This document shows, piece after piece, positions 43,001-46,000 of a DNA stretch of 64,000 nt. Origin of the DNA: Siderastrea siderea (Eukaryota; Cnidaria; Anthozoa; Scleractinia; Rhizangiidae); the NCBI GenBank assembly GCA_964030785.1, contig OZ034975.1, positions 17,585,142 to 17,649,141 on the forward strand, read 5' to 3'. The notes below the pieces were generated by a model. The model did no database searches, was not told where the DNA came from, and saw nothing but the letters and a program-made list of their open reading frames with translations. Numbering within the stretch: the stretch's first letter is position 1; every line of letters starts with the position of its first letter. A program made the translations under genes and the position numbers.

Positions 43001-46000
43001 CATGTTTGCTGGATGAATGTTGGAGTAATGTTTAGCCGCCGCATACCGTTTACTCGCGTGTCAAACAATGCTATACAACAGTACCACGATTCTTAGTTTC
43101 TCCCGATTGCTTTTGAGACGCCAATTTAACTACGGGGTTAACGCCGTTTTGACGTCCCAAAAGCGAGTGAGTGATTGGTTGAAAATTTCGCATAATTTTT
43201 GTTAAGCTCCTCCCGTTCAAAACAAAACTTTCCCTTCAAAGAGCGGCCCAAAATAAAAATTATTTTGTCCGTTGAAAGATAAAGAAAAGCAGCATTCAAC
43301 TTTAAAGTCCATATTATCGTTCAAAGTGTATTTTATTCGTTCTTTTTAAGTCTGTTTTTGTCGAGTTGTGGTTGTGCGCGCGCTAATCACACATAATCAA
43401 TCACATAAGCTCCGTATTGGGCTCCGTCGCAAATATATTTCCTTCCAACCAGAATCGTCAATATATAGAGGATATTACACGGTGGCGAGAAGATATGAAT
43501 TTTATGTTCTCGTGGCAAACACAATATCTCAAGAGTGAGCGCAGCTCACTCGTGAGATATTGTGTTTGCTACGAGAACATAAAATTCATATCTTCGAGCC
43601 AACGTGTAATGTTCGTTTTATTATATGTATTTTTACAAATACGGAAATACAAAGTGAAAAATACCAAATACGCGGTGCCAAGGATAAAGTGAAAAATACA
43701 AAATACCCGGTGCCAAGGATATAACATACAGCTGTACTCTGAACTAATTTTACAAATGTCACTGACTCTGACTACTTGAGTCATCAGAAACGGTAATTTT
43801 TAGCCTTTTTTCGGAACGAATCTTTGAACACTTTTCGGTACGACCGGGCTGATACCCTTGCACATTTACCGTTCCGATTTGGCAGTTTTGAAATAAACTT
43901 CCGGAAGCGGCACCCGCTAATTAGCTATCCAACTTAGTTTTCTCCTCAATGGAGACGACTGACAAGGTTTGGCTGGTACTGGCATCGTTAGACAATACAG
44001 CGGAAATCTGCTTCTGTTTCTTATCGGACAAAGATGAGTAGTTGTTTAAAGAGTTCACGTTTTTATGTCCAGTAATCTGAATGATTTCGTTGGGTGGTAT
44101 CTCGTTATCCACCAGCTTCTGGACCAAATGCTTTCTTGTGCTGTGATTTACGAGCTTTTTGTCTGAATCCAGGCCTGAATCTTGTACCATGTTCTTCAGC
44201 ATACTTCTCAAGGAATTGATTCCAAGCGGAGAGCATTTGAACCACATTTGATCGGGTTTCGGCCTTTCGTTGTTAACAGCAAGATAGAAAGGCGATTCAT
44301 CGCTCATCATGGCAGCGGGCCGGTGATCTTTGTAGGCCAAGTAGGCATTGACGGGGCAGCGATCTGCATTGCTCTTGTTTTCGTACATTTGAGGTTTCTT
44401 CTCTCTAATATTTCGAGGGTTTTCACCGGTACGCGTTTTTGTTTGTCTTTCTTTGTTGAACTCGATGAAGCGGTTTCCCTCCGAATCTGTTTTTAACTGC
44501 AAATCGCCCCAGCAAAGGTCTCTCTGCTCTTTCCCTGGCCTCATACCAAAGAATGTACAGTTGTTCATCCAAAGGGTATTTAATAGAGCTCTAGGAGAGT
44601 GAATTCCTAGAACTCCACGGCTGTAAAAAGTGGCGATGTCTTCATCCGACAACAGATCCGCTGCGTTTGGCCGGTTTCCTTTGCCCACGGATTTTAACTG
44701 TTTTTGTTTCTTCTTTAAAATATCTTGAACCGCAGGAAACTCTTTGTCGTTGAGGACGGAAAATCCATAATTGTTTTTTCGAAGATGCCGGTCGATGCTT
44801 TGTATGGACGCTCTGATTGACGAGGGTTCGTACTAATCACCATTTTTCTTTCGCACAGCGAGAACAAATTTTTTGATGATATCTTGCAGCTCCACAAGCG
44901 CGATATCCTCAATCTCTCTCTTCTCGTCGCAAGTGTCGAGAAATTCTTTGAAAACCTTCAAATCGTACAAGGTCCTCTTTTTTGTGTTTTTGTTGTCGAA
45001 GCTTTCGGAAAACTCTTTCACTTGTTCATCGTTTAGTAAAACAAACCTGCTTGCCAGCGCCATAATTCTAAACAACACTGACGCAACGACGCATTCAGTT
45101 CATTCAACAAAGTAGAAAAGGCGGGAATCGTGACGTCATTGAACGATATGACACTCAAAAGCGTGACATACGGAAAATACGCCACTCGGGTCCCGGATGG
45201 AGTGGCGTATGGAATCTACGAGCGGTTTAGTTCCCAGTAAAACACTTTCCTCCATATAATAAAATGCAGTATTGCCGTCTCAAAATTGCAATTAGATTAT
45301 CATGTTAGATCGTTTCGACGAGCTTCTCCCAGTTACTCAGCTTGGACAGTCTTAGGATGGCAAGTAAGTCCTATTATGTGTATAGAAATGTTATTCTTAT
45401 TATTCTTATTATTCTTCTTATTATTATTATTATTATTATTATTGTTATTATTATTTTTATTACATTGCAGTTTTTCGACCATCCAATCATCTTAGACCTG
45501 ATGACTGAGAGATGGTATGGTAATCGCCGTTACTTGGAATCATCAAGACCATGGTGGCTGTTTCTCAACTTTTGGTGTCTCTTTGAAGTCGTACTTTTCC
45601 CATTTTCATTTCTAATAGCCTTTCTCCTTGGTAAGGTTTAGAATTAAAATTTACTTTTAATAAACAAAATTAGGCGTCTTTGAATTTTTTTTGGAAAGAG
45701 TGTGAAACTAGAGCTGTCGAGACAAAAAACCATCGGAGGTGCAGGCAAGCTTGTACCTTCACCTTTGTCGAGCTAGCCAGGGAAGCTTGGAAAGGGGAGT
45801 TGATAGACCCCGCTTGGATTTTTGTTGTGTTGCAATATCTCGAAAAGATTTTACCTTCCATATATGGCCCGTGGTGTGCTCTACAGGATTTGCTAAATAT
45901 TATGGGTTGCCTGGGGCCTTTGACTTCATCCAAAATGGTAACCAAGATGGCCATCGTCTTGGATTTTACGAAAAATTAGAAATTATCAAACGTGGATATA

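Follow-up and report, generated by a model that had tools for sequence, protein, structure and literature searches.

A probable Crypton-lineage tyrosine recombinase transposon with Helitron2/Helentron-like asymmetric ends, and its non-autonomous derivatives, in a coral genome

The window, the whole 64-kb stretch of coral DNA that we analysed, carries on its minus strand a Crypton-type tyrosine recombinase (YR) transposon, element A (43465-45264), which is full-length yet broken and was delimited by blastn against a second element, B, and by full-length genome relatives at 92-95% identity. The unit consists of a leader with a 5' subterminal inverted repeat, the YR gene, a matching repeat and, directly after it, a terminal palindrome. 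On the minus strand of element A, the 5' terminus and its subterminal repeat occupy 45238-45264, with two to five leading T's depending on the copy (A-family flank rows), and the leader features at 45131-45210 comprise a dyad at 45177-45210 around TCCGGGACCCGAG and a CRE-like TGACGTCA at 45131-45138. The YR gene frame lies at 43759-45063 and reads from 45063 to 43762, its limits being set by comparison with a 434-aa relative, P0001. It is followed by the 3' subterminal repeat (ATATAATAAAA, 43616-43626), the palindrome with hairpin arms of about 65 bp (43474-43610; a 137-bp self inverted match at 90.5%) and the 3' terminus CCTCTAT (43465-43471). Host target half-sites stand on both sides, ATAT adjoining the 3' end with its D-TA motif (43461-43464) and, from the A-family flank motif, ATA at -9 to -7 on the 5' side (45270-45272).

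The exact match between the two subterminal repeats of A is only 11 bp. Its tail folds at -64 kcal/mol (z -17.7; 0 of 200 shuffles equal), and in the shuffle test its leader reaches z -2.5, that of B being weaker (z -1.0). By motif search, TTTTATTATAT and ATATAATAAAA are absent elsewhere in the 64-kb window, the terminal motif CGTGTAATATCCTCTAT is confined to A and B even at three mismatches, and TCCGGGAC[TC]CGAG is likewise confined to them at two. TGACGTCA alone is unremarkable, occurring at seven places in the window. It is kept in the leaders of both A (45131-45138) and B (17919-17926), seems from protein sequence to be present ahead of the YR in P0063 and P0083, and is perhaps part of a promoter.

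The window also holds other repeats. A reverse transcriptase frame on the plus strand (37716-39086; RVT_1 E 4.5e-10), part of a retroelement, reads like a DIRS-type reverse transcriptase. A very long inverted repeat at 6070-7627 and 9693-11275, about 2 kb apart and with arms of 1128 bp at 99% plus two inner stretches, is probably a large fold-back element or an inverted duplication. Three fold-back elements (41224-41835, 12828-13206 and 24387-24666), with arms 89-97% complementary, gave no significant blastn match to A or B.

The expectation that the larger element encodes a recombinase resembling Crypton/DUF3504 proteins was borne out, in a frame that is broken in this copy. The frame matches DUF3504 (Pfam, E 3e-27) and Phage_integrase (E 1e-7), is the sole frame of at least 120 aa inside A, and is interrupted by two in-frame stops, TAG at 44833-44835 and TAA at 43921-43923. 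The relative P0001, 98% identical, has an open frame of 434 aa; its predicted model (mean pLDDT 71) retrieved QRICH1 as the best Foldseek match and Cre-loxP entries next, the integron integrase 2a3v ranking only 50th. Four residues, R175, R310, H333 and Y342, are invariant in 16 relatives, and H307 is nearly so; on the basis of known motifs, we take these to be the catalytic R, H, R, H and Y. Long open frames persist at several loci (L013, 439 aa; L021, 438; L008, 426; L012, 425). When five long frames were checked by exact motif strings, all four catalytic motifs were found in L008 and L009 only; L008 diverges from P0001 near its end, and the L009 frame is 349 aa long. Relatives that carry species names came from corals and an octocoral (Oculina, Porites and Paramuricea) and from one abalone. 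Among viral contigs, protein searches returned 2 and 36 pattern stretches, none confirmed as relatives, and a search with the 17-bp 3' terminus gave no relatives; none of the 29 stretches from a protein search of genome contigs could be confirmed either. Bacterial contigs gave five exact 18-bp hits, which were dismissed as chance; otherwise no tail match there was better than E 0.04.

Element B (17801-18095, plus strand) is 295 bp long and lacks a recombinase. Its 5' subterminal inverted repeat (17801-17825) pairs with the 3' one (17956-17980) over 25 bp with one mismatch (24/25). The leader contains a perfect 8-bp stem, ATATCCTC/GAGGATAT (17894-17915), the whole leader folding no better than shuffles, and the terminal palindrome is imperfect (17987-18086; self inverted match of 68% over 100 bp), with a tail fold of -13.8 kcal/mol (z -3.1; 1 of 200 shuffles as good). 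The original prediction had A and B sharing both ends in the same order and orientation, asymmetric ends that combine subterminal inverted repeats with a one-sided terminal hairpin. Alignment of 17801-18095 to A agrees on each point: blastn matches cover 98 bp at 77% at the 5' end (E 2e-15) and 70 bp at 80% and 45 bp at 91% in the tail (E 2e-14 each), all collinear and on a single strand, and the motifs lie where they had been placed. In the 64-kb window, every blastn hit of B better than E 0.19 falls in A or B. A paralogous host segment without B lies at 25937-26775 (plus strand), its homology stopping within 1-2 bases of 17800; it was rejected as a clean empty site of B, as about 60 bp are extra there. 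Tandem host duplications occur at about 11.8, 22.2, 29.1 and 55.2 kb and at 17.3-19.7, 25.8-28.0, 32.4-33.9 and 60.9-61.3 kb, one copy being this paralog of B's insertion site.

To place both elements in their genome, the 831-Mb assembly containing the window was searched. With A as query, 1790 first-look candidates, unconfirmed as copies, were obtained, 40 were scored and 20 loci were cut out; among these 20, A included, seven match A over 1-1800 and seven more from base 2 or 3 to 1800, the 13 full-length relatives other than A being 92-95% identical to it. Fourteen full-length copies of A resemble one another at 93-98% (median 97%); over 1600 bp, 15 variable sites are shared between copies and third positions show no excess of differences, and for these reasons they look like a recent burst. 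No purifying selection was found within this burst, differences amounting to 1.2, 1.4 and 0.9% at codon positions 1, 2 and 3. A 542-bp deletion derivative, joining A 2-348 to A 1638-1800, was found at 12 places, three of them with an incomplete tail. With B as query, 2320 first-look candidates, again unconfirmed as copies, were obtained, and each of the 40 scored places lacks at most 2 bases of full length; one is B itself (100%), and the other 39 are 86-91% identical to it.

Antisense reading frames over the element ends, used as protein queries, gave a second view of these families. The B frame retrieved 45 relatives and the A tail frame 410, 120 of them listed. The 3' subterminal repeat stands directly beside the tail in 118 of these 120 listed frames (by text pattern; the query itself held the repeat), the two exceptions being one frame too short to tell and one truncated, and the parts before the terminus share no common 6-residue word, save in the related pair P0201/P0280 and for one single word. 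The leader is present in 54 of 165 frames, 52 of which have the tail too. Antisense YR codons and tail occur together in 10 of the 165 spurious frames, with P0172 an eleventh by hand; in P0173 a single frame spans host sequence, tail, subterminal repeat, YR codons and leader, in that order, and leader sequence was also found at the N-terminus of the YR proteins P0030, P0063 and P0083. The view that the palindrome is the element's 3' end and no independent repeat is upheld by this adjacency, and a pattern of palindrome and recombinase moving independently was looked for and not seen. Two side observations concern arrangement. A further non-autonomous family (P0196, P0203, P0270, P0272, P0274 and P0281) has the same tail and subterminal repeat around a short-tandem-repeat interior, resembling in this the Helentron-derived HINEs. 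Elements also lie tail to tail, with two tails about 18 codons apart in P0166 and a pair at L052 in which one copy sits within the 3' end of another.

Sister lineages of the recombinase were sought with the protein query P0014 (2419 candidates, 96 scored). One of them, L077, is old, broken and 3'-truncated, with its first bases altered, and at the DNA level its YR is about 66% identical to that of A. In the leader, L077 is 91% identical to B over 126 bp, versus 78% to A over 91 bp, and its 3' part matches the subterminal repeat and palindrome start of B at 88% over 83 bp. Because of these matches, B is best derived, on sequence grounds, from a sister YR element of the L077 subfamily and not from A; the original prediction of B as a derivative of the recombinase element thus stands for a non-autonomous relative and falls for descent from A itself. 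L077 likewise shows, at the level of sequence, that the B family has its own YR element. A third lineage, family III (L073-L075, three copies fetched), is 97-99% alike, 2.1 kb long and carries frames of 441-461 aa, the protein being 44-45% identical to P0014; in these 2.1-kb elements the longest frame is the YR. They start with TTTATATCATAGATAC; the subterminal repeat, measured in L074, is 24 nt long, starting at the 5' terminus and coming back at 92% identity 160 bp before the 3' end. The palindrome after the inner repeat has a raw energy of -46 kcal/mol, without shuffle comparison, and the 3' end CTCTAT is followed by TTA, GTA or ATA. As a side observation, a family III copy in L074 apparently sits within an older member of its superfamily (134-235 and 2867-2893). 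The layout is common to three YR lineages, of which one is represented by a single broken copy and another by three copies; since family III retains layout, 3' terminal motif and right half-site at 44-45% protein identity, all three features are, judging from these alignments, conserved over long divergence.

The insertion target was read from the flanks of A-type loci L006-L042 (37 loci, 28 used). L013 (flanks equal to those of L011), L023 (the same locus as L042) and L039 (imprecise 5' end) were set aside, as were L019, L024, L025, L027, L038 and L040, each missing an end. The 3' terminus CCTCTAT is identical in the 28 copies, which have both flanks, except for one base in L017. On the left, positions -9 to -7 are A in 20, T in 22 and A in 23 of the 28; on the right, positions +2 to +4 are T in all 28, A in 25 and T in 20, and +1 is A in 17, T in 9, G in 2 and never C (p 3e-5 to 2e-14 against flank composition). 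The 31 rows of the B family have T 24 and A 24 at -8 and -7 and T 28 and A 28 at +2 and +3; one of these rows, L069, has the flanks of L051 again and another, the minus row of L052, is wrongly paired, and without these two (n=29, by hand) the counts are T 22, A 23 and T 26, A 26. The same flank positions being enriched, both families prefer TA-N7-TA. In family III, the right flank is DTA in 3/3 copies and the left ATA in 1/3, and the insertion site of B in the window matches the motif poorly. The check proposed at the outset, a search for many further copies that keep both ends and share an insertion site, came out in favour: such copies are present and their insertion motif recurs. By its sequence, the insertion site looks like a YR target, unlike the T-T site reported for Helentrons. 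A 3' flank of R-TA, derived from the frames (Y before the terminus in 90/119), was rejected because TTA is a stop on that strand; the DNA gives D-TA.

A comparison with unoccupied sites, which had been proposed as a check, was possible in three cases, and no target duplication or loss is visible in them. An old paralog (about 72-79%) of the insertion site of derivative L028 lies in the window itself (930-1240, minus strand), and aligns without a gap at the junction, a gap of one base falling about 9 bases further left. At L063, joining the flanks recreates three host units of 9 bp, in wider surroundings that are only loosely periodic (40/71). At L052, judged by eye and allowing for one changed base, B has gone into the 3' end of another copy, whose intact form is seen in other copies. 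A local empty site sought from the L017 flanks was not found. A 9-bp target duplication was considered and found unconvincing (119/252 matches against 109 expected, p 0.045); left-right flank matches slightly exceed shuffles at some offsets (p 0.01-0.05, uncorrected for multiple testing), p reaching 0.01-0.04 at other lengths and offsets and many more not doing so. Of the short direct repeats (4-6 bp) that fungal Cryptons have at both termini, the flanks here show TA at equal spacing on either side, but no repeat that is identical within a copy. Joining the ends yields a lox-like dyad that is weak, with an empirical p of 0.019 for A minus one of its four leading T's and 0.093 for unaltered A and for B, and as read from the sequence it is only suggestive.

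The terminal palindrome was compared in 31 of the 37 A-family tails, leaving out L013, L024, L025, L027, L040 and L042. Its centre is lost in 7 of the 31; in the other 24 copies, 16 centres are in the flip and 8 in the flop orientation, three of the 24 (L006, L014 and L021) being nearly symmetric and of unsure orientation. The derivative family (n=11) has 7 and 2 of each orientation and 2 without the centre. In 11 full-length copies, orientation does not track descent (p 0.73). Both arms carry identical letters at an inner arm-specific site in 7/22 readable copies, as if one arm had been copied onto the other. Flipping of the palindrome, as seen in these alignments, fits a hairpin or cruciform at some step.

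The element shares with Cryptons a DUF3504/Crypton-type YR as its only transposition protein (in A), the catalytic R-H-R-Y as assigned by known motifs, and the lack of a target site duplication. The animal groups CryptonA and CryptonI are described as having no terminal repeats (Kojima and Jurka 2011, PMC3212892, section 8); in that account they also have a DUF3504/YR protein alone, with no C-terminal domain, non-autonomous copies that outnumber autonomous ones and no known target duplication, as here. They differ from the present elements, which have subterminal inverted repeats of 11-25 bp and a terminal palindrome in three YR lineages, as well as a defined TA-N7-TA target. Since the published animal groups are reported without terminal repeats, these ends mark a Crypton variant and do not exclude the element from the group. 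Its end layout is that of Helitron2, Helentrons and HINEs, as far as the descriptions we drew on go (Bao and Jurka 2013, PMC3627910; Thomas et al. 2014, PMC4067079; oyster HINEs, PMC7492417): a 5' repeat at or near the terminus, and a 3' repeat inside, just upstream of the 3' hairpin. According to the same descriptions, further likenesses are the 5' T, a variable T run and no target duplication in Helentrons, and many non-autonomous copies, some with central tandem repeats; differences are the YR in place of RepHel, hairpin arms of about 65 bp and TA-N7-TA in place of T-T. No RepHel was found in A, where the YR is the only frame, nor in family III by longest frame. A Helitron2-type 5' hairpin formed from the 5' repeat is absent, the first 50 nt giving z +0.9 in A and z -1.8 in B (12/200 shuffles as good), with the repeat largely unpaired. 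Flanks with at least two T's on each side, as in the T-rich target of Helentrons and HINEs, were not found, the 3' flank being D-TA. The genome has 79 Helitron_like_N matches, many in open frames of more than 1000 codons, so that intact Helitrons apparently coexist with these elements and a RepHel partner could lie elsewhere in the genome. The strand-biased circularising integrative elements of Vibrio (SE; PMC9345347) resemble them in the R-H-R-Y YR, imperfect inverted end motifs and a short T-rich crossover; in the description we drew on, they are bacterial and carry several genes and a terminal hairpin goes unmentioned, and the transfer of donor crossover bases reported for them was unseen here. 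Literature titles and the beginnings of abstracts yielded no Crypton with a terminal hairpin or subterminal repeats, and Repbase may hold such entries. We know of no Crypton with a Helitron2/Helentron-like end layout. The earlier impression that a terminal-hairpin Crypton is undescribed therefore held for the literature found, while the end layout as such is already known from Helitron2 and Helentrons.

Taken with its derivatives, this end layout is that of a Crypton-lineage YR transposon with Helitron2/Helentron-like asymmetric ends. The reading we favour, with a probability of about 0.8, is that A and B are Crypton-lineage DNA transposons moved by their own YR through joined ends, with derivatives mobilised in trans. 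The YR would bind both ends and join them, would recombine the joined ends with the dyad target, whose TA half-sites are separated by 7 bp, in the manner of YRs acting at core sites, and would mobilise end-only derivatives in trans. Less surely, the terminal palindrome may be extruded or single-stranded at some step, which would explain both centre orientations and the arm-to-arm copying. Integrons offer a possible model, their attC hairpins being folded-strand sites that the YR IntI recombines; they have no evident sequence relation to A or B. A bolder version, in which a YR transposon moves via a folded single strand or a hairpin-ended intermediate as the YR counterpart of Helitrons, strikes us as rather unlikely, and a single folded strand as substrate is speculative. 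Here the YR would exchange one strand, which would be copied out, and the palindrome would snap back and be re-synthesised either way round in each cycle, end-only derivatives riding along.

Other explanations have to be weighed against the Crypton-lineage reading. The same transposon might have a palindrome that is idle in movement, with flipping and arm conversion arising in old copies by slippage during replication. Ordinary template switching, a familiar source of mutation at quasipalindromes, can also flip palindromes, the centre is lost in nearly a quarter of the A-family tails and the palindrome of B is weak; against this, the palindrome occupies the same place in all three YR lineages, and flips are frequent although coding positions differ by only about 1% from the majority. 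We regard this idle-palindrome account as a tentative yet real possibility. Much less probable is that the tail is an independent palindromic MITE into or beside which a recombinase element inserts. The tail does occur with several interiors (A-type leader, B-type leader, YR fragment and tandem repeats), but the 3' subterminal repeat touches it in nearly all listed frames retrieved with a query that held the repeat, host sequence starts at the same base past the tail in 28 A-family copies, and insertion-free sites lack repeat and tail alike, which makes this explanation very hard to sustain.

It could also be that a Helitron2/Helentron rolling-circle transposon owns these ends and has picked up the YR as a passenger, B being an ordinary HINE-like element moved by RepHel. 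The layout matches closely, the 5' T run is variable, there is no clear target duplication, Helitron RepHel genes are present in the genome, and Helitron2 elements described as carrying Fanzor provide a precedent. However, elements of 1.8 kb and 2.1 kb are too short for RepHel, A has only the YR frame, and the layout persists across three YR lineages, one of which has about 44% protein identity. Because the same layout is kept in all three, YR and ends appear to have diverged together, which makes capture by a Helitron unlikely. The dyad TA-N7-TA with its 3' D-TA is not the T-T flank reported for HINEs, nor is there the 5' hairpin with the 5' repeat that is part of the published Helitron2 description, and we consider this origin improbable.

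The Crypton-lineage reading bears on several questions. Cryptons have been hard to delimit, their ends being said to lack inverted or long repeats, and here both ends and target can be read. A large set of short repeats gains a named autonomous partner. The convergence of YR elements and Helitron2 on an outer repeat, an inner repeat and a terminal hairpin makes a role of this arrangement in strand-specific transposition testable. Finally, the domesticated vertebrate DUF3504 genes ZMYM2, QRICH1 and KIAA1958 are described as descending from such recombinases (PMC3212892), and the ancestral DNA that those recombinases recognised becomes open to study.
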